Positions 5,728 through 32,561 are shown, counted from the first letter of the stretch. The stretch is DNA of 64,000 nucleotides from Chlorobiota bacterium (GCA_013152535.1 JAADGE010000051.1:1-64000); one strand, 5' to 3'. Program-made: numbers and translations. The notes: generated by a model from the letters alone, not told the origin.

Positions 5728-6783
5728 CTATCGTTTTTCGTATTGGTTTTCATAATATTTTTCGTAAGAACCATCGATTATCCGATTCATCCATCCTTCA
5801 TTTTGCAGATACCATTCAATTGTTTTTTCTATACCTTCGTCAAAAGTTACCGAAGGTTTCCAGCCGAGTTCATTTTGAATTTTAGAAGAATCTATGGCAT
5901 AACGTAAATCATGACCGGCACGATCTTTTACAAAGGTTATCAGTTTGGAAGATACGCCCGGTTTACGCCCGAGTTTGCGGTCAGCAATTTCACAAAGTTT
6001 ATGAATTAAGGCAATATTCGTCCGTTCGTTATTGCCTCCGATATTATAAGTTTCGCCGTTTTTACCTTTATGAAAAACTAAATCAACGGCATTTGCATGG
6101 TCAATAACATAAAGCCAATCTCTGATGTTTTCACCTTTTCCGTATATTGGAATGGGTTTGTTGTGTTTTATATTGTTAATTGCTAAAGGAATTAATTTTT
6201 CGGGAAATTGATTAGGCCCGTAATTATTTGAACAATTGGTAATTACAACAGGTAATTTGTAAGTGTGAAGATATGCTCTTACAAGATGGTCGGAGCTTGC
6301 TTTAGATGCAGAGTAAGGACTTCGAGGGTCATAAGCCGTAGTTTCGGAAAAAAAACCTTCATTACCGAGTGAGCCATAAACTTCATCAGTAGAAATATGA
6401 TAAAAACGTTTGTTTTCGAAATTATCTTTCCAAAAGTTTCTTGCAGCATTTAATAAATTAACCGTACCGAGAATATTTGTTTTAATAAATGTTCCCGGGT
6501 CAGAAATAGAGCGATCGACATGCGATTCGGCAGCGAGATGAATGACCCCGTCAAAAGCATATTTTTTAAAAAGGGTATTTACAAGTTCTGCATCTGTAAT
6601 ATCACCTTTTTCAAAACGATAATTATCTTTTGAACTGATATCTTCCAAATTTTCAAGATTACCCGCATAGGTTAAGGCATCAAGATTTACAATCTTATAA
6701 TCAGGATATTTATTTATGAATAATCGAATAACATGGGATCCTATGAATCCGGCACCTCCGGTAATAAGAATAGTTTTTTGCAT
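5728..6783 (-). CDS. rfbB: dTDP-glucose 4,6-dehydratase
   Basis: GGAGFIGSH Rossmann motif, HLAAESHVDRSI, STDEVYGSL, YSASKASSDHLVRAY, NCSNNYGPNQFPEKLIPL. Confidence 0.96.
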   Translation of the reverse strand: MQKTILITGGAGFIGSHVIRLFINKYPDYKIVNLDALTYAGNLENLEDISSKDNYRFEKGDITDAELVNTLFKKYAFDGVIHLAAESHVDRSISDPGTFIKTNILGTVNLLNAARNFWKDNFENKRFYHISTDEVYGSLGNEGFFSETTAYDPRSPYSASKASSDHLVRAYLHTYKLPVVITNCSNNYGPNQFPEKLIPLAINNIKHNKPIPIYGKGENIRDWLYVIDHANAVDLVFHKGKNGETYNIGGNNERTNIALIHKLCEIADRKLGRKPGVSSKLITFVKDRAGHDLRYAIDSSKIQNELGWKPSVTFDEGIEKTIEWYLQNEGWMNRIIDGSYEKYYENQYEKR

Positions 6784-22071: not shown

Positions 22072-22530
22072 TTATTGATTTTTTCCTACAAAAGACAATA
22101 TTCCTACTGCACAAGTTTTGCGCCTGCCTTTTCCTTGTTTAAATCTAATGGAAACATAATAAACTCCTGAACGTTTGCATATAAAGTCAAACATATTTCT
22201 GCCGCTTTTTTCAGTAGAATTCCATGGTCTCATTTCGGGATGTTTACTGTCAAACAGAGTTAATTTTACATCGTTACTGTGACCGCTGGGAGAACAAAGA
22301 ATAAAACGATATCTCGTTCCTCTGTTTAACACAACAGGCCATTTGGTTCCGTTAATACTTCTTTCTGATCTTACAGCTCTCAGTTTTGTATTAAAATCGC
22401 GCAAATATATTGCATTTCCTCCTTTTCTGGCACACTGATAAACTCTTTGTTGTTTACATTGTGCTTGAGCCTCCCCGGATGCAAATATAAAAAAACTTGT
22501 TATGGCTATAAGAATGGCTATCTTCTTCAT
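22072..22530 (-). CDS. Secreted hypothetical protein
   Basis: Signal peptide followed by a 120-130 aa basic, Cys-containing domain. Overlaps the upstream ORF by 1 nt. Confidence 0.6.
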   Translation of the reverse strand: MKKIAILIAITSFFIFASGEAQAQCKQQRVYQCARKGGNAIYLRDFNTKLRAVRSERSINGTKWPVVLNRGTRYRFILCSPSGHSNDVKLTLFDSKHPEMRPWNSTEKSGRNMFDFICKRSGVYYVSIRFKQGKGRRKTCAVGILSFVGKNQ

Positions 22531-23429
22531 TATAATGAGATTAAATTGTTACGAATTTTAATAATTTTATTTTCTATTTTATTTAAATTTTCTTCTGTAT
22601 AGATAATTTCGGTATGTTCTCCCGGTTCAATTACCTGAATAGAATCCTGAGTATAAGAAATTTTATCCTCTCCTTCAACTACCTTAATTTCAACAGTATC
22701 ATATAATTTTAATAATTCTCTGAATTGATCATTCATTTTTTTAAACTTCGGTTTATTATCAAAGAATTCTAAAACACTTAAAAGTTCTTTTACTATATCT
22801 TTTTGTCCTGCAATTATTTCTTCTGTTGTTGTATCTCTTTTAAATTGGTTTACTTTACAAGCAAGATATTGACCTTCAGTCCAAACACCCGTAATCATTA
22901 ACGCACTTAAATTACTTCTTCTTGTTTTTCTTAAATGTTCATCCATATCGTGATAACTGGTAACGGATAAAAACATTAACGAATCCAGATTATTACTGTT
23001 GGTAGCTAAACGTTTTAATGTTTGAAATTCGAAAAATTGATCAACATCCAATGCGTCAGCTAATCGTTTAATTGATGTTAAATATTCAACAATAGCATTT
23101 TTTCTGTTATAAACATTTAAATAACCCAAATCGGCACTTAACATACCCAATCCCAATGCTTTCTCAAAATTTGAATCAAAATCATTTGCCACATCTGTAG
23201 GGACAAGGTGTTTTTTCGAATAAGGCACTTTCATATCTTCAATTGTTGCTGCCATTTCAATCGGAGACGGGAAACTTTCAATTAACCCGTTAATTTTTGC
23301 AGGGTCAATTTGAACAGCTCTTGAAGTATCCTGTGTATCAGGTCCGGTAATTGTTGCATCATCACCGCCTCCGCCGCAAGAAGCAAAAACAATTATAACA
23401 GATATTATAAATATAAGTTTTTTTATCAT
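22530..23429 (-). CDS. Hypothetical lipoprotein
   Basis: Lipobox VFASCGGGG; otherwise no recognised domain. Confidence 0.65.
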   Translation of the reverse strand: MIKKLIFIISVIIVFASCGGGGDDATITGPDTQDTSRAVQIDPAKINGLIESFPSPIEMAATIEDMKVPYSKKHLVPTDVANDFDSNFEKALGLGMLSADLGYLNVYNRKNAIVEYLTSIKRLADALDVDQFFEFQTLKRLATNSNNLDSLMFLSVTSYHDMDEHLRKTRRSNLSALMITGVWTEGQYLACKVNQFKRDTTTEEIIAGQKDIVKELLSVLEFFDNKPKFKKMNDQFRELLKLYDTVEIKVVEGEDKISYTQDSIQVIEPGEHTEIIYTEENLNKIENKIIKIRNNLISL

Positions 23430-23508
23430 AATAAAACAGTTAAGAAAAAACTATCAACAATCAAAGATATTAAAATTTTTATATTTCAAAAAATATTGTT
23501 TGAATATT

Positions 23509-26500
23509 TTATTTTTCAACCTTATCCTGTAAAGCTTTTTTCTTTTCTTTTCCTCCTTTTTTATTAAATTTAATATTACCGAAAAACTCAACAAATTTCC
23601 GTAAATGATCAAAATATAACGGAAAATATAATAATAACGACATTGCCCAAATTACGAATATATTAAACCAAAATGTTTCATATACGTGTCCTAAAAAATA
23701 TTTATGCGGAGCGTAAAAATGAGCTCTGAAACCTATGAAATTAGAATCATCAGGTTCTAAATATATAGGTTCTTCCTGTCTTACTAATTTTTCATTAAAT
23801 CGTAATATTTTATTCTTTTCATATATATTTCTGACAATATCATCAAGATGCTCGTTGTGATATTTATTTCTGAATTTGATATAATATCCCGGTTTTTTAC
23901 TGTCCTGATAAGTAATTAAATTTTCTTTTAATTCATTGGCACTTGAATATACAGCAAGATAAAAGTCTTTCCATTTTTCAAGATAATCCATAAGGTCATA
24001 ACCTTGTTTTTCAGGATCGTAAGTGCTTACGTTCAATGAATTTATTAATTTTTCAGGAATAAATAATGAATCTTTTATTGTCTTATCGTCAGCAGCTAAA
24101 GCATCAAAATTATTGTAAAAAACATCAAAGTTTATCTTTCTGCCGTTTTTTCCTTTTTTATAATTCCTGAGTTCATGTGTCAGCTCCAATATTTCTCTGT
24201 TTCCTTTCGGAAGTTCATGTTTCAGTAAAGCTAATTCGTATGCAACTACTTTATTAACTGAATCAACATTATTTTTTCCTTTATTTTCTTCTTTAACTAT
24301 TTCAATAGCTTCAATACTTTCGGAAAGTTTGGGAATAAATTTATCCTGACTGAAATTAGCCGTACTTTTAACTTGATCAAAAGGAAAATATTGTTTTTCA
24401 AATTTATTTTCTTTAAACTGATGCACCATTAGTGCCTCATATGCCCAGCGAGATGCCATAATATCAGCAATAACAGGTACTTTATCAACACTTCCGATTA
24501 CTCTGTTTAATTTATTGAAACTAAACATAGCTCCGCCTAATGCCATTTGAGGAATCATTAACAGAGGAATAAGAATATATATTGTAACGGCAGAATTAAA
24601 TGCAGATGAGATGTTTAATCCCATAAAATTTGCAAAAACAAATGTTGAAAATAAAACAATCCAATATGCAAAATACATACCTTGAATGCCGAGAACAGCA
24701 TTTCCGATAATTACGAATAAAAAGGCCTGAATTGCTGAAATTGAAATCAATATCACAATTTTTGCCGTTAAATATGAAGAACGGCTTAAATGTAAAAATT
24801 TTTCTCTTTTCAGTATTTTTCTGTCTCTGAAAATTTCTTCGGCACTTACGGTTAATCCTAAAAATAATGCTACTACAATGGACATAAATATATAAGGCGG
24901 TATATTTTCATTATCGAAGAAAATATATACCGAAGAGGTGGGATCTGCAATGTATCGAATTAAAAATGCCAAAATAAAGCCTAAAAGAGGTGCTTCAACA
25001 AGATTAAGTACAATGTACTGTGTATTACTGATTTTAGATAATAAATCTCTTGTTAAAAAGATTTTAAACTGATTAAACCAATTCGGAATACTTAAATTTG
25101 CCGGCGGCTCATCACTGACTTCTTCAACTTCGTCTTGGGGAACTTTTTCGTGATAATGTTTTTCCCATTCTTGAGGAGTTACTTTTCGTTGTTCGGTATA
25201 TTTCCCGAATTCATCAACTACTTCCGATTCTATAATGTCAAAAATTAATTCCGGTGTTACATTTCCGCAAATCTGACATTCTCCGATATCTGCATTAATC
25301 TGATTGTCAAGGACTTTGAAGTGAACAACAGCGTCAACCGGATTTCCGTACCAGACGAGATAACCGCCTTGATCCAAAATCAACATACGGTCAAACATTT
25401 TGTAAATATCTGATGATGGCTGATGAATGACTACAAAAATTAATTTACCTTTTTGTGTTAATTCACTCAAGAGTTCCATTACATTTTCCGAATCTCTTGA
25501 AGATAAGCCGGATGTAGGTTCGTCAACAAAAAGAATTGCGGGCTCTCGGATAAGTTCTAAAGCAATATTCAGACGTTTTCTTTGACCGCCGCTGATAGTT
25601 TTATTCATTGAATTCCCGACTTTCAAATCCTTTTTATCAAAAAGTCCGAGATCTTTTAATGTTTTTTCTACAAGTACTGTTATTTCTGCTTTGTTTTTAT
25701 TTTTAAAACAGAGTTTTGCATTATAGTATAAATTTTGAAATACGGTTAATTCTTCAATTAATAAATCGTCTTGAGGAATATATCCGATAACGCCTTCGAG
25801 TTCTCCTTTGTTGTGGTGCAGATTAATACCGTTAATTTTAACTTCGCCTGAAGAAGGTGTTGTAATTCCTGATAAAGTATTAACTAAAGTTGTTTTACCG
25901 GAACCGCTGGCACCCATTATACCGACTAATTTTCCGTGATCAACAGAGAAACTGACGTCTCTGACTCCGATATCACCGGTTTTAAATCTATATTGCAGGT
26001 TATTTACTACAAATGATAATTTGGAAATTTCCAAATCTCTCATAAATCTGGCTGCAACATCGCTGTAATGGATTGGTTTGCCTTTTGGTAATTTAATAAC
26101 ACTTCCGGGAGCAAATAAATATATCCGATTGTTATAAACCGTTGTACTGTTCAGAAAAACATCTTGTTTTCCGGTATATTTTAAGAAATATAAATCGGCA
26201 CTTTTTACTTGTAAAATTAAGACACTTCCGTGAAGACTCTCTGAAAGAATATGTTGAGAGTGACTGTGAGTATTATCTTTATCATTTATTATTAATACAG
26301 ATTCGGAATCTAACTCGCGATAATCATTCTGTATAACAAAGTTTTCAATTTCTTTTGATTCTTTTGCAGCAAGATTAAAAGCATCGGCAACAACGGAAAT
26401 AATTTCCATTCTTTGCTCAGAAAGGTTCTTTTCAACATTAACATTAACAAGCTCAAATAAACGAGCCAGAACAATTACTTTTTGTTTGTGGTTAAGTGTT

Positions 26501-26778
26501 TTATTAATTTTACGGCAAATTCCCATTACTCTGACGGAATCGACCATTTTAACTTGTCCTGAAGAAGTATCTGCTCTGCCTTCTTTTCTTTTTCGTTTTT
26601 TTTCTTCTTTTTCAGAATGTTTGATGAACAAATCCATATATTCATCAACCTGAGATTTGCTTAGTTGAGAAGATAAAAAAGTTCTTACGAATTTTTCTTC
26701 CTGTTGGACAACTCCTTCGTCCTGCTTTGCAATAATAGCAAATAATTGCATTAATGCTTTTAATATCTCTTCACTCAT
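23509..26778 (-). CDS. ABCG-like ABC transporter with N-terminal TerB-like and FHA-like regions and ABC-2 permease domain
   Basis: Walker A GASGSGKTT, signature TISGGQRKRLNIA, Walker B LFVDEPTSGLS; TM helices after residue ~600; N-terminal TerB-like helical region; CQICG insert. Confidence 0.85.
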   Translation of the reverse strand: MSEEILKALMQLFAIIAKQDEGVVQQEEKFVRTFLSSQLSKSQVDEYMDLFIKHSEKEEKKRKRKEGRADTSSGQVKMVDSVRVMGICRKINKTLNHKQKVIVLARLFELVNVNVEKNLSEQRMEIISVVADAFNLAAKESKEIENFVIQNDYRELDSESVLIINDKDNTHSHSQHILSESLHGSVLILQVKSADLYFLKYTGKQDVFLNSTTVYNNRIYLFAPGSVIKLPKGKPIHYSDVAARFMRDLEISKLSFVVNNLQYRFKTGDIGVRDVSFSVDHGKLVGIMGASGSGKTTLVNTLSGITTPSSGEVKINGINLHHNKGELEGVIGYIPQDDLLIEELTVFQNLYYNAKLCFKNKNKAEITVLVEKTLKDLGLFDKKDLKVGNSMNKTISGGQRKRLNIALELIREPAILFVDEPTSGLSSRDSENVMELLSELTQKGKLIFVVIHQPSSDIYKMFDRMLILDQGGYLVWYGNPVDAVVHFKVLDNQINADIGECQICGNVTPELIFDIIESEVVDEFGKYTEQRKVTPQEWEKHYHEKVPQDEVEEVSDEPPANLSIPNWFNQFKIFLTRDLLSKISNTQYIVLNLVEAPLLGFILAFLIRYIADPTSSVYIFFDNENIPPYIFMSIVVALFLGLTVSAEEIFRDRKILKREKFLHLSRSSYLTAKIVILISISAIQAFLFVIIGNAVLGIQGMYFAYWIVLFSTFVFANFMGLNISSAFNSAVTIYILIPLLMIPQMALGGAMFSFNKLNRVIGSVDKVPVIADIMASRWAYEALMVHQFKENKFEKQYFPFDQVKSTANFSQDKFIPKLSESIEAIEIVKEENKGKNNVDSVNKVVAYELALLKHELPKGNREILELTHELRNYKKGKNGRKINFDVFYNNFDALAADDKTIKDSLFIPEKLINSLNVSTYDPEKQGYDLMDYLEKWKDFYLAVYSSANELKENLITYQDSKKPGYYIKFRNKYHNEHLDDIVRNIYEKNKILRFNEKLVRQEEPIYLEPDDSNFIGFRAHFYAPHKYFLGHVYETFWFNIFVIWAMSLLLYFPLYFDHLRKFVEFFGNIKFNKKGGKEKKKALQDKVEK

Positions 26779-26874
26779 AGTATCAGGTTATAACGAAACT
26801 GAAAATCAGTTAAATATTTTTTAAGAACATAAAGCATAAATTAAGAAACATTTTTTTGAAATAAACTTAAAATA

Positions 26875-27264
26875 TCAGTCAATTGAATAACTTACTTGTT
26901 CAAAAGGTACTTCAACAATGTCTTCGTATTCTTCTCCGGCTTCTTCCATATCTTCATCATCATCGGGAAAATGCCATCTTACTAATACATCATTTCCCGC
27001 TTCATGCATATCTTCAAGTTTTAATAAAATATCCAATAACAGTTTTGAAGATGCCGTATTAAAGTATTCTAATTTGATGTTGAGGACAGTTTTTTCTAAG
27101 GGATTTTCAGAATATTCATCCAGCCATTCTAAAATAGGGTCATAAAATGCAACAACATCTTCCGGTAATGAACGCCCGGAAATTTCCATAAATGGGTTTT
27201 CAGGATTAGCATCAAATGTAACCTGAGGAGTATCGTCTGTACCTTCAATTTTAATTACTCGCAT
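26875..27264 (-). CDS. SiaC-family regulatory phosphoprotein (DUF1987)
   Basis: 129 aa: TPQVTFDANPENPFMEISGRSLPEDVVAFYDPILEWLDEY...LNIKLEYFNTASSKLLLDILLKLEDM. Confidence 0.88.
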   Translation of the reverse strand: MRVIKIEGTDDTPQVTFDANPENPFMEISGRSLPEDVVAFYDPILEWLDEYSENPLEKTVLNIKLEYFNTASSKLLLDILLKLEDMHEAGNDVLVRWHFPDDDEDMEEAGEEYEDIVEVPFEQVSYSID

Positions 27265-27272
27265 AATATCTT

Positions 27273-27851
27273 TTATTTTGTTCTGAATATAGTTGATGTT
27301 AATATAAAGTACGATTTTTTATCATTTAAATCTAAAAATGTATATATTAATTGTTCACCGGTTTTTCGTACCATATCAATAAATCCCAGTCCGGCACCGC
27401 CTTTTTGAGATAATTTTCCGAATTTAATTTTTTCTTTGTAAAGATCTTTCAGTATTTTTTTATTTCCTGAATTAATTTTTTCTATATGTTCTTTTAATGC
27501 AGGAATATTTTCATTAAATACTACATTTCCTGTTGTTATGTTGTATTCTTTGTCATTTTTTGTTACTAAAAAAATACCTTGTCCGTTTGTAATTGAATCA
27601 GGATTTATTCTTTCAGATGAATGTTTACTGATATTCTGTAAAGATTCAACCATTACATGAAAAACTCTTTTTTGCAAAGAATTTGATTCATTACTTAAAG
27701 CAATATGACTTTCGGCCAATGAACTGAATGCTTTTGTAATTTCATGTGTTATTTCCCCTTCATAGGCAAAAGTAACATCACTATTCTTCATGATGTTAAA
27801 AAAATCGAAAGCAAAATGTAAATTTTCATTAATATTTTGATTTTCTGTCAT
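27273..27851 (-). CDS. SiaB-family protein kinase (GHKL/DUF6272-like)
   Basis: VMVESLQNISKHS...GGAGLGFIDMVRKTGEQLIYTF; next to the SiaC homologue. Confidence 0.8.
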   Translation of the reverse strand: MTENQNINENLHFAFDFFNIMKNSDVTFAYEGEITHEITKAFSSLAESHIALSNESNSLQKRVFHVMVESLQNISKHSSERINPDSITNGQGIFLVTKNDKEYNITTGNVVFNENIPALKEHIEKINSGNKKILKDLYKEKIKFGKLSQKGGAGLGFIDMVRKTGEQLIYTFLDLNDKKSYFILTSTIFRTK

Positions 27852-27861
27852 ACAAAGATTT

Positions 27862-30471
27862 TTAAAATTCGATACCTATAAATAGTATGTCATCGATTTG
27901 TTTATAATTCTTCTTCCAATTTTCAAAATCATTGACAAAGTAATGATAATATTCTTTCATTGAAAAATTATTTTTTTCAATAATAATATCTCTTACCCTG
28001 CTTGCTTGGTATTTTCTGCCTTCTTCACCGCCTATTTGATCCGGTAATCCATCGGTAAATATAAATATTTTATCTTTTTTTGCAATATCTATTTTATAAT
28101 TTGTAAATTTAGCTTCTTCTTTTCCGCTTCTTGAGGCAACGGATTTACCTCCTATAGACATTCTGTCTCCTTTATATCTGTCTAATTTATCGCCTCTTAA
28201 AAAAAATAAAGGGCGATGTGCACCGGCATATTCTAATTTGTTTATTTTATAATTTATTTTTACGAGTGCAATATCCATGCCATCCCGTGCTTTTGAATCC
28301 GGAGAATCTTGTTTTAATGTTCGTCTGACTTGTATGTGAAGTGCATCAAGAATTTCTGCCGGCGTTTTTTTCTCTTTGCTGTTTAGAATACTGTTTAAAG
28401 AAAAATAGGCAATAAATGAAATTAATGTTCCCGGAACACCATGACCCGTACAATCAATTGCTGCTATATAAATCTCATCTTCAGTAACATAAAACCATGG
28501 TAAATCGCCGCTTACGACATCACGCGGTTTATAAAACATAAATGATTCCGGTAAGTATCTTTTTATAATATCAAAATCCGGTATAATTGCAGATTGAATT
28601 CGTTGAGCATAATTAATACTTTCAGTAATATTTTTATTTTTATTCTCAATTTCAATTTCAATTTCTTTTCTTTCGGTAATATCATGAACTACAAAAAGAA
28701 TTGTGTTTAATATATTGTTTTCTCCGAATTCAGGAATTGCATTAAATTGAACAATCCTCTTAGATTTGTCGATTTTAAAAATTGTTTCTTTTTGAATTTC
28801 TTTTTGGTCGGTATTTATTTCTGCTGTTAAAGATTTGATAAAATCTTGAATTGTTTTTTCGATTTCAACATTTTCAATGGTTTTGCCGATTAATAATTTC
28901 GGGTTAATTCCGAGAAATTTTTGAGTTGTAGGGTTTGCATAAAAAATTGTTCCGTCAGTATCAATTCTGATAATCATATCGGGACTGTTTTCAGAGAGTG
29001 CCTGCATTTCACTACTCAGCCTTTTAATGGTTTCTGCCTCTTTACGTTCGGTAATATTTCGAGTGTTAAATATAATTCCGTTAATAGCAGGGTTATCAGT
29101 AAGATTTCTGCCGCTTGTTTCTAACCAAAGGCGTTTATTGTTTTTATTTGTATATTGATATTCAAAGGTTCTTGCTTCATTAGGATTTTGCAGTAAATAT
29201 TGAAAAACTTCTTTGAGTATTTTGTCTCCTCTTTCAAATCTGTTAACACCGATCATTTCTTCGGGTTTAAAACCTAATATTTCTTTTACCGAAGGACTGA
29301 CATATTGAATAATTCCCTTTTGATCATATATAGTAATAACTTCAGAGGCATTTTCTAACAGGGCATGAAGCCTTTTTTGCCCTTGTTCAACTTCAGAAAT
29401 TTTTTGAGCAAGCTCGATATTGTATTTTTTCAATTCAATTTGTGTTTTTTCCGTTAATTTGGCATTTTCTCTTAATTCGGCTTCGTTATGTTTTAATTCT
29501 TCGGTTAATTTTTGAGAATCGGAAAGAAGTTTTTTAGTTATCGTATTTGCTTTAATATTAAATAAAGTTTGCCCTATAATTTCACTTAATTCTTCAAATA
29601 AAAAAAGAGTATTTTTATTGATATTGTTTTTTAAAAATGCTATTTCTATTGCACCTTGTATTTTTTCGTCTCCCAGTAAAGGTAATACAACAAGGGACTT
29701 CGGTTTTTGTTCACCCAGTATTCCTGAGGTTACTGTAATAAATTCATCCGGTAAATTTTTTCTGTAAAGAACTGTTTTTTCATAGGATGCTTGTCCTATC
29801 AAGCCTTCTCCGATTTTGTATTCTGTTTGTAAAAATTTTTCTCTTCCGTATGCGTAGGATGATACAGGTTTCAATTTTTGTATTTCGTTATCAAAAACAT
29901 AAAATATGCCCTGAACTGCATCGGTATATTCAATGAGTTTTACCAAAATATCATAGGACAAAGGTTTTATTTCATTATATTTTATTAATATATCGTCAAT
30001 AATATTTTTTCCTTCCGAAATCCAATTTTGTTTTTCTTCAGTTTGAGATTTCTGAATCAAATTGTCTTTCATTTCAATAAGCGATTGACCTAAGTCATCT
30101 TCAAAGTAATAATTTTCAACCTCAGAATAATTTCCGTTTCCTATTTTTTTGATATATCCGGAATATTTCTGAATTAAATTTTCTTTTGATAATAATTGGT
30201 TATAAATTTCTTTCCTTTCTTTTTGAAATTTCAGAGTTAAAAAATAAGAAAATCCGGCTAATAAAAACGGGAAGAAATCAATAAAAAATATAATCGGATT
30301 GTTTAAATGGATGTTTTTTATTTCAGAAATATTAAAAGGAATATCTTTTATCAGAAAAAAATAAAACCCTGCCGAAAGAGGGAAAAATATACCCAATACA
30401 AATCCGTATAATACTGATTTATATGTAGTTATATTTTCCGAGAAGATATCAGATATTTGTTTAGTGTTCAT
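27862..30471 (-). CDS. Membrane PAS/GAF sensor with SpoIIE/PP2C phosphatase domain (SiaA-like role)
   Basis: N-terminal TM helices, GAF, two PAS, then VVSGDLPWF...AAIDCTGHGVPGTLIS...ARDGMDIALV...FIFTDGLPDQIGG. Confidence 0.87.
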   Translation of the reverse strand: MNTKQISDIFSENITTYKSVLYGFVLGIFFPLSAGFYFFLIKDIPFNISEIKNIHLNNPIIFFIDFFPFLLAGFSYFLTLKFQKERKEIYNQLLSKENLIQKYSGYIKKIGNGNYSEVENYYFEDDLGQSLIEMKDNLIQKSQTEEKQNWISEGKNIIDDILIKYNEIKPLSYDILVKLIEYTDAVQGIFYVFDNEIQKLKPVSSYAYGREKFLQTEYKIGEGLIGQASYEKTVLYRKNLPDEFITVTSGILGEQKPKSLVVLPLLGDEKIQGAIEIAFLKNNINKNTLFLFEELSEIIGQTLFNIKANTITKKLLSDSQKLTEELKHNEAELRENAKLTEKTQIELKKYNIELAQKISEVEQGQKRLHALLENASEVITIYDQKGIIQYVSPSVKEILGFKPEEMIGVNRFERGDKILKEVFQYLLQNPNEARTFEYQYTNKNNKRLWLETSGRNLTDNPAINGIIFNTRNITERKEAETIKRLSSEMQALSENSPDMIIRIDTDGTIFYANPTTQKFLGINPKLLIGKTIENVEIEKTIQDFIKSLTAEINTDQKEIQKETIFKIDKSKRIVQFNAIPEFGENNILNTILFVVHDITERKEIEIEIENKNKNITESINYAQRIQSAIIPDFDIIKRYLPESFMFYKPRDVVSGDLPWFYVTEDEIYIAAIDCTGHGVPGTLISFIAYFSLNSILNSKEKKTPAEILDALHIQVRRTLKQDSPDSKARDGMDIALVKINYKINKLEYAGAHRPLFFLRGDKLDRYKGDRMSIGGKSVASRSGKEEAKFTNYKIDIAKKDKIFIFTDGLPDQIGGEEGRKYQASRVRDIIIEKNNFSMKEYYHYFVNDFENWKKNYKQIDDILFIGIEF

Positions 30472-30473
30472 TC

Positions 30474-32561
30474 TTAAAATTTAACATCTTTAAGCCATTC
30501 GGCATATTTTTTTTCTGTGGGTGTTTCAAAACTTTGCAGAATTTTGTCTTCTCTTTGTTTTAAAAGTAAAATTTTATCATCCGTAATGAGTTCATTCTTT
30601 TTTACTTTATTAAAAACGCTGTTTATTTCTTTTTCTTTTTCGCTGATAATTCTGACTTTCGCAATTAATTCTTCTTTTAAAAGTTCATTTTTCTTTTGTA
30701 ATTCTTCTCTGAAAGAAGTGTTATCAGCCAGCATTAAAATTCTGATAATTTCACCTTTTTCATTTCTCACGGCAGAAAATAAAGAATTTGTTTTTATTTC
30801 ATTATTGTCTTTTGTCGTAAATATAATTTCTTTATGAGTAAAACTGTTTTTTGAGATTTCGCTAAAAACATCTTCCGTAATTTGCCTGTTTTTATCTTTT
30901 ATAAATTCCGAAAAAGTTTTATTTCTCATTTCTGTCAGTCTGTAGCCGAGCCTGTTTAGGAATAAATTATTAATTGAATTAATTTTTCCGGCTGTTGTAA
31001 GTTCAATTTTAAATAATATTTTATCAATGACTGAAATTAGAGCATTTATTTCCGATTCACTCCTTTTTGTTTCTTTTTGGGCATCTTTTAATTCATTTAT
31101 TTTTTCAGACATTTCAGTATCTCTCATAGCTAATTCTTGAGATTTTTTCTGAGTTTCTTCCAACAATTCAGCTGTTTTGTATGTAATTTTTGTAGTTTCT
31201 AAAGTTTTAGCAATATCTTCTGCAATATTTTCAATAAATTCAATTTCTGTTTTTTTGAACTCATAGAATGATGCAATTTCAACAACACCGAGGATATTAT
31301 CTTCAGTTTTTAAAGGAAATATTAGGATGTTAGTCGGAGTTGCTTCTCCTAAGCCGGATTCAATTTGCATATAATCATCCGGGACATCTGTAATTACAAC
31401 AGTATTTTTTTCAACGGCACACATCCCGACAAGTCCGTCTCCGAATTCGATTCTTTTAGTAAGCATCTTTATTCGATCATAAGCAAATGCCGATGTAAGT
31501 TCGAGAAACGGAACTGTTTCATTGTCGTTAACAATAAAAAAACCGCCTTGAGCTGCGTTTAAAAATTTTACCATATTTATTAATGCTGTTTCGGCTAAAT
31601 TTTCAATTCCGGAACTTGCTTCGCGTAAAATATCGTTAAATTTTGCCTGTCCTTCGGCAAACCACTGTCTGCGGCGTTCATCTTCAAGTCTTTTATCATT
31701 AATTTCAATATTTTCTTTCAGTTTATCCCTTAAGTCAGTAAGTGATTTTTGAACAGGGTCTTTTTGTTCTTCGGTTTTAAAATTTACACTGTAATTATCT
31801 GATAATAAATTATTAATAAAATCTGAAATTTCCTTAAATTTTATGTTAAATGATTCTATTCCGCTTAAAACCGGTGCAAATTCTTCACTGTTTTGAAATT
31901 TTGAAATTTCTGAAGTATTTGTCAGACTCTTAAGATTTAATTGTAAATTTTCAATATTTTCGGAAAGTTCTTTTTTTATTTTCAAATAAATTAATATTGC
32001 AGAGACAAGAATTAACAGAAGTGTCAGAATATCCGTAATATTTTTTCTGACTGATAAAGATTGAATTGATTTATTATATGAATTCTCGGTATTTTTTAAA
32101 TTATGTATTATAAAACTTAAATTTGATACGAATTCCTTTTTATATTTTTCAAAATAAAGCAAATCCGAATCGGAGTATTTTTTTAATATTTCGTTATTCT
32201 TTTTTATTCTTTTTTTAATATCAGAAAATGTTTGAGAAAAAACTTTTTCAACAGGAGAAATTTTATTTGTAATAATTAAACCGTTAATTTTTCCGCCTTC
32301 TGTAAGTATTGAAACGGATGATTTTATATCAGAAAGATAAGATGTTATTTTATCGAAATTAATATTTTCGGAAGAATTAAATTGATTAAAAATCTGTTCT
32401 GTTAAAAATAAACTTTTATCAATAAGAATCACTTTGTTCTCTTTATCTATTATTTTTTTGTTGAAATAATTTGTTAAAAAATAATTCAGAATACTCAATA
32501 CAAAAATTATTGATAAGAATATCTTTATTCCGCTGATTATTGATTTTTTTTTAAATGCCAT
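30474..32561 (-). CDS. Membrane sensor protein with GAF and PAS domains, no recognised output domain
   Basis: Two TM segments bracketing a periplasmic region, GAF (AAQGGFFIVND...GDGLVGMCAVEKNTVVITDVPDDY), PAS, coiled coil. 2 nt upstream of the SpoIIE gene. Confidence 0.8.
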   Translation of the reverse strand: MAFKKKSIISGIKIFLSIIFVLSILNYFLTNYFNKKIIDKENKVILIDKSLFLTEQIFNQFNSSENINFDKITSYLSDIKSSVSILTEGGKINGLIITNKISPVEKVFSQTFSDIKKRIKKNNEILKKYSDSDLLYFEKYKKEFVSNLSFIIHNLKNTENSYNKSIQSLSVRKNITDILTLLLILVSAILIYLKIKKELSENIENLQLNLKSLTNTSEISKFQNSEEFAPVLSGIESFNIKFKEISDFINNLLSDNYSVNFKTEEQKDPVQKSLTDLRDKLKENIEINDKRLEDERRRQWFAEGQAKFNDILREASSGIENLAETALINMVKFLNAAQGGFFIVNDNETVPFLELTSAFAYDRIKMLTKRIEFGDGLVGMCAVEKNTVVITDVPDDYMQIESGLGEATPTNILIFPLKTEDNILGVVEIASFYEFKKTEIEFIENIAEDIAKTLETTKITYKTAELLEETQKKSQELAMRDTEMSEKINELKDAQKETKRSESEINALISVIDKILFKIELTTAGKINSINNLFLNRLGYRLTEMRNKTFSEFIKDKNRQITEDVFSEISKNSFTHKEIIFTTKDNNEIKTNSLFSAVRNEKGEIIRILMLADNTSFREELQKKNELLKEELIAKVRIISEKEKEINSVFNKVKKNELITDDKILLLKQREDKILQSFETPTEKKYAEWLKDVKF

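Follow-up and report, generated by a model that had tools for sequence, protein, structure and literature searches.

Which protein does a SiaC-type phosphoprotein control when its operon encodes an exporter and no diguanylate cyclase? In the literature searched, SiaC (DUF1987) is known as the switch for one diguanylate cyclase. In Pseudomonas aeruginosa, residue T68 of SiaC is the target of SiaA and SiaB, and unphosphorylated SiaC binds helices of the cyclase SiaD (PMC8457831, PMC7647112). The operon addressed here lies in a 64,000-nucleotide stretch of DNA from a Chlorobiota bacterium (the window), which corresponds to contig 39 of a 3.3 Mb, 98%-complete genome. The best-matching named relatives are mostly metagenome assemblies of Bacteroidales. 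ORF analysis exactly reproduced the arrangement described in the original prediction, i.e. seven open reading frames on the minus strand at 22072-32561, which are separated by successive gaps of 2, 10, 8, 96, 79 and -1 nt (Table 1). Likewise, the family assignments of the five upstream genes were supported by Pfam and NCBIfam matches, and the lipoprotein and the small secreted protein belong to no Pfam or NCBIfam family. The sensor encoded by the first gene, which has equivalents at the same position in the loci of relatives, contains no kinase or phosphatase domain.

Table 1. Features of the operon and their positions in the window.
Feature	Coordinates	Strand	Basis
GAF/PAS sensor, membrane-anchored, coiled coil	30474..32561	-	first operon gene; GAF_2 2.1e-15, PAS_9 1.2e-06
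SiaA-like GAF/PAS/PAS/PP2C (SpoIIE) phosphatase	27862..30471	-	SpoIIE 2.2e-14 (Pfam)
SiaB-like GHKL-type protein kinase (DUF6272)	27273..27851	-	NCBIfam "SiaB family protein kinase", 157.5 bits
SiaC-like phosphoprotein (PF09345/DUF1987)	26875..27264	-	Pfam 1.4e-39; acceptor Thr70 in YFNTASSK
TerB-FHA-ABCG exporter, 1089 aa	23509..26778	-	Pfam, Foldseek FHA matches, conservation
Transporter residues 75-98 including DSVRVMGICRKINKTL, candidate helix for SiaC docking	26485..26556	-	S81-V82 signature
Possible separate promoter, TTTG-N17-TATCTTTG	23462..23490	-	pattern match only
Lipoprotein, lipobox Cys18, all-helical	22530..23429	-	Cys18 nearly invariant, 67 homologues
Small secreted protein, beta-rich by sequence	22072..22530	-	signal peptide in sequence

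For the phosphatase, the best NCBIfam match was the SiaA model, whose phosphatase part aligned with residues 604-866 at 163 bits, i.e. below the equivalog cut-off; the SpoIIE Pfam match exceeded its cut-off. The DxxGHG core, present as DCTGHGVPG, and the other core residues are conserved in 65 sequences. The DUF6272 protein, a family not found in the literature searched, scored 157.5 bits with the NCBIfam SiaB family kinase model (cut-off 85 bits) and 62 with the SiaB equivalog model, short of the required 225. Its SiaB-like N-box (MVE.LQNISKH) and G-box (KGGAGLGfID) are conserved in 78 sequences. SiaC matched PF09345 with 134.9 bits (cut-off 24.5) and the SiaC equivalog model with 83, the cut-off of 150 not being reached. 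Alignment with 6kko equated T70 of this SiaC with T68 of P. aeruginosa SiaC, and the SiaC part of an AlphaFold2 (AF2) model matched solved SiaC structures with a TM-score of about 0.9 (Foldseek). With their catalytic motifs and the acceptor Thr preserved, the SiaA/B/C-type enzymes appear to be intact.

The absence of a cyclase, originally read from the window, extends to the whole genome, including any dedicated SiaD encoded elsewhere. A genome-wide profile search returned zero GGDEF matches, whereas matches were obtained in 8 of the 14 control genomes, and a search for PilZ, also with working controls, returned zero matches genome-wide. Thus, no SiaD was found in this 98%-complete genome. Among 119 genomes of the order, which represent one genome per family with one exception, 51 carry SiaC and four carry GGDEF proteins, while both co-occur in a single genome. 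Therefore, SiaC in this order does not, as a rule, act through diguanylate cyclases. One could still envisage an ordinary SiaABCD system, in which SiaC controls a diverged SiaD or another nucleotide enzyme missed by the GGDEF profile, as strongly diverged members can escape a profile search and the assembly is not closed. However, with neither GGDEF nor PilZ detectable here and GGDEF lacking in 115 of the 119 genomes, we regard this idea as hardly credible.

The operon SiaC is one of 14 SiaC domains in the genome, which also encodes 11 SiaB-type (DUF6272) domains; some relatives possess up to 21 SiaC. In almost every SiaC of this genome, the acceptor position is occupied by Ser or Thr. Many SiaC paralogues have no adjoining transporter, and another copy in this genome is located next to a propeller-SpoIIE protein. 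Elsewhere in this genome, at least three hemerythrin-like proteins are encoded in a row between SiaC and a TPR-GAF-SpoIIE phosphatase (L025:777-2622), a possible oxygen or metal input to the SiaC switch. The same locus encodes a natural SiaB-SiaB-SiaC fusion of 507 aa beside an ion-channel protein and polyphosphate kinase (L025:12888-14411), and tandem SiaB-SiaB proteins were seen at L023:8639-9724 and L026:8223-9371.

To learn whether the SiaC-transporter linkage is conserved beyond this genome, on which the original prediction hinged, the regions surrounding the best transporter match in relatives were retrieved. Indeed, the linkage turned out to be widespread. Of the conditions named as refuting the original prediction, two were thus checked, a linkage confined to this genome and a dedicated SiaD elsewhere in it, and neither applied. 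Counting the window, 33 loci have a co-directional SiaC immediately upstream of the transporter, and almost every one of them comes from a different family of the order. Mostly, SpoIIE and SiaB precede the pair, and lipoprotein and secreted protein follow it, with median gaps from SpoIIE onward of 30, 14, 45, 55 and 2 nt. An equivalent block is present in three genomes of one family belonging to another order of the class. In named genomes, SiaC preceded the transporter in all 78 loci with upstream sequence, in 76 as called and in two with a spurious or split ORF intervening; as this set was chosen by similarity to linked transporters, it indicates range rather than frequency. Cultured hosts of the operon are Alkaliflexus, Natronoflexus, Carboxylicivirga, Labilibacter and Geofilum. 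Among the order's 295 genomes, SiaC and the transporter occur together in 111 and are both missing in 164, with SiaC alone in 11 and the transporter alone in nine (Fisher p 2.5e-56, ignoring phylogeny, of which these counts are not independent). Of 198 genomes surveyed across the phylum, five carry the full-length transporter, all five together with SiaC, while the transporter is missing from eight SiaC-bearing genomes outside the class. Individual loci deviate from the common layout: in one, SiaB directly precedes the transporter and SiaC is absent from the block but present elsewhere in the genome (L074, G090 contig 51, transporter at 5837), and in Carboxylicivirga (L164:4158-9963) a SpoIIE phosphatase gene was not detected next to the SiaB-SiaC-transporter genes. 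A 1074-aa open frame antisense to a transporter gene (L067:5746-8970, plus strand) is most likely a composition effect.

A second layout was detected in 19 loci, in which another SiaB-SiaC pair and a second transporter are encoded on opposite strands and converge. Eight of the 19 loci also encode a lipoprotein homologue upstream of the second transporter, and a small protein of ~140 aa in between. The SiaC proteins of the same-strand and convergent layouts form separate groups, and so do their transporters. In the present genome, the second transporter and its lipoprotein are on contig 45 and the corresponding SiaC is on contig 92, i.e. they are now apart. Through these two mirrored pairs, the transporter gains support as the partner of SiaC. 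They also bear on the view that SiaABC and exporter merely share a condition of expression, with no contact between SiaC and exporter and the true partner of SiaC encoded elsewhere in the genome. The many paralogues without an adjoining transporter would fit such a scenario. So would a possible promoter ahead of the lipoprotein gene, at 23490, where a Bacteroidetes-type pattern (TTTG-N17-TATCTTTG) raises the possibility that lipoprotein and secreted protein are, in addition, transcribed from a start of their own. However, the pairing survives in two unlike layouts, and the convergent one cannot be a single transcript, so that co-transcription alone is insufficient to explain it.

We then considered where on the transporter SiaC might dock. 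The protein combines ABC_tran (1e-33) and ABC2_membrane (4.5e-20) domains in one chain (Pfam). A TerB-like region (residues 1-150) and an FHA-fold region (~151-245) are followed by the nucleotide-binding domain (about 260-490) and the membrane part (about 570-790). A large variable region at about 795-1020 looks like an insertion preceding the last membrane helix; it is probably extracytoplasmic and, from its position in the sequence, could plausibly be where lipoprotein and secreted protein contact the exporter. The TerB match (residues 8-144) scored 22.3 bits, just under the Pfam cut-off of 24.4; a helical fold is predicted, and no TerB structure was among the Foldseek matches listed for the model of SiaC plus head. 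The same search matched many FHA domains (best 5yyx, E 0.006, probability 1.0), and the FHA fold was placed by sequence order and a strand-rich stretch of the model. A role of the locus in defence was dismissed, as PADLOC matched the ATPase domain only.

The original prediction had named the TerB-like or the FHA-like region as a plausible docking site, and the data favour the former. Rv1747 of Mycobacterium tuberculosis, an FHA-ABC transporter regulated by kinase PknF, is activated by Ser/Thr phosphorylation (PMC3908365). Following this example, the FHA fold rather than TerB could read phospho-SiaC, the phosphorylated form being the active one, and the Foldseek matches are in keeping with this. 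However, no Pfam FHA match was obtained for the transporter and the canonical phosphothreonine-binding motif GR...S..H was not seen in the sequence of the FHA-like region, for which reason phosphothreonine reading is not favoured and TerB is the better docking candidate. In addition, the FHA region is more variable than TerB among linked transporters (identity 0.49 vs 0.60) and differs less between the transporters of SiaC-bearing and SiaC-less genomes. Recognition of phospho-SiaC by the FHA fold is therefore very improbable in our estimation.

The TerB-like head carries a signature that tracks SiaC. S81 and V82, located near the start of a predicted helix (75-94), are each kept in 72 of 76 transporters of SiaC-bearing genomes and in none of nine from SiaC-less genomes, a difference found post hoc by comparing the groups. 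When a tree was computed without the head, from the nucleotide-binding and membrane parts, the SiaC-less transporters came out at two or three positions, and deep paralogues between these branches, which derive from SiaC-bearing genomes, keep Ser-Val. Exceptions come from one family with SiaC present (f5), in which two transporters have A81-A82 and a third S81-A82. A second transporter in one SiaC-bearing genome (G085) lacks the signature, which is thus not a genome-wide habit. Some transporters in SiaC-bearing genomes have the signature without an adjoining SiaC, which may point to sharing of partners or to action in trans. Divergence of the whole head was weaker with nine SiaC-less genomes (z 0 to -4) than with four (z -6 to -9), and therefore the Ser81-Val82 signature alone was used. 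Q99 was dropped as signature residue, since E99 occurs in some paralogues of SiaC-bearing genomes. As the diverged TerB-FHA head is retained in SiaC-less genomes, it must have a further role.

In P. aeruginosa, the T68-bearing helix of SiaC packs on the stalk helices of SiaD, where T68 hydrogen-bonds Ser and Gln (PMC8457831). By analogy, Ser81 may be likened to the stalk Ser contacted by T68. AF2 prediction of SiaC joined to the transporter head as an in-frame read-through chain folded both parts (pTM 0.57) and gave no readable interface; the pTM value is consistent with unconnected domains. Taken together, the proposal that the transporter is the output of SiaC was strengthened by the mirrored pairs and the Ser-Val signature and received no confident interface from AF2, and we consider the transporter the probable target of SiaC. 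Although the missing interface would also suit mere co-expression without contact, a head signature that follows SiaC presence speaks against it, and we judge that scenario unlikely, if the most serious of the competitors.

Next, we turned to the two envelope proteins, which had been called orphans and proved to be conserved operon members in most relatives. The lipoprotein was modeled with a pLDDT of 82 and a pTM of 0.79; its fold has no PDB counterpart by Foldseek (best E 0.17), and a sequence search of the PDB gave only one weak kinetochore match. In three of four SiaC-less genomes examined, it still adjoins the transporter, which suggests that lipoprotein and exporter are the core output and SiaABC an added control. 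In almost every locus of the same-strand layout, the lipoprotein gene is succeeded by that of the secreted protein, with 33 homologues in place and 66 in genome-contig loci. A paralogue was noticed beside polyphosphate kinase (L025:18535-18999).

In many families, genes for CheR, a HAMP/GAF/PAS sensor, a second CheR, CheB and a small GAF membrane protein precede the operon, which points to adaptation of the input by methylation; the operon of this genome contains neither CheR nor CheB. Such a block ahead of SpoIIE-SiaB-SiaC-transporter is seen at L077:1-5294, with equivalents in other relatives, and no chemotaxis kinase was noticed in it. Signal flow could also be reversed: exporter and lipoprotein would form a co-sensor whose head controls SiaC or the phosphatase, the true output being another protein. 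Flux sensing by BceAB-type systems is a precedent for a transporter as co-sensor. Persistence of the lipoprotein-exporter pair without SiaC and the room that 14 SiaC leave for many outputs agree with this model, and the head could bind SiaC in either role. We nevertheless consider it improbable, since in P. aeruginosa SiaA/SiaB act on SiaC, and SiaC in turn on its partner, and the operon already has dedicated sensors (GAF/PAS here, and also CheR/CheB in many relatives).

We therefore lean, with modest confidence, towards a SiaABC partner switch that operates independently of c-di-GMP and gates an ABCG-type exporter through unphosphorylated SiaC on its TerB-like head. The phosphorylation chemistry would follow that of the Pseudomonas homologues: the GAF/PAS sensor and the GAF/PAS/SpoIIE phosphatase would sense a signal and dephosphorylate SiaC at Thr70, and the DUF6272 kinase would phosphorylate it. 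We infer that the unphosphorylated form would bind the exporter directly, at the head helix around Ser81-Val82, comparable to P. aeruginosa SiaC on the SiaD stalk helix, and that the effect would run from SiaC to the exporter, which would be switched by binding; phosphorylation would release SiaC. Together with lipoprotein and small secreted protein, the exporter presumably works on a substrate. More tentatively, and not quite as readily as the switch itself, we propose that the SiaC family of Bacteroidales has evolved into a general c-di-GMP-free phospho-switch, one old branch of which directly gates the TerB-FHA-ABCG exporter via the TerB head, and that SiaC copy numbers from 1 to about 20 per genome reflect many further non-cyclase targets. 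The operon thus offers a concrete, widely conserved candidate target of the SiaC family outside c-di-GMP signalling, with named residues (SiaC T70, transporter S81-V82). If true, an ABCG-type exporter would be under post-translational partner-switch control, and this would help to explain a dozen SiaC copies in genomes without any c-di-GMP cyclase. A general role of the family in modulating neighbouring proteins was considered possible by the authors of the SiaC structure (PMC8457831).

The closest known system is SiaABCD of P. aeruginosa (PMC8457831, PMC7647112), which shares the PP2C phosphatase, SiaB-family kinase and SiaC in one operon, the acceptor Thr, the SiaC fold and a downstream gene as presumed partner. 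Here, however, no SiaD/GGDEF was found in the genome and the downstream gene encodes an ABCG-type exporter; an extra sensor, a lipoprotein and a secreted protein are added, and SiaA, SiaB and SiaC fall below the NCBIfam equivalog cut-offs. Partner switches of the STAS type such as RsbU/RsbV/RsbW also employ a phosphatase/kinase pair that sets the phosphorylation of a small protein, and the SiaC-containing model weakly matched the RsbV/RsbW entry 6m36 (Foldseek). Nonetheless, SiaC gave no STAS match in Pfam, and the operon has no sigma factor gene. With Rv1747/PknF of M. tuberculosis (PMC3908365, PMC5549992) the operon shares an ABC exporter that has an FHA regulatory region and is encoded next to a protein kinase of its own. 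Rv1747/PknF is controlled by phosphorylation, and the likeness lies in the control proposed here, whereas the present exporter has a TerB-like head with a degenerate FHA fold and belongs to a different operon, in which a SiaB-type kinase, a separate SiaC substrate and a PP2C phosphatase are encoded.
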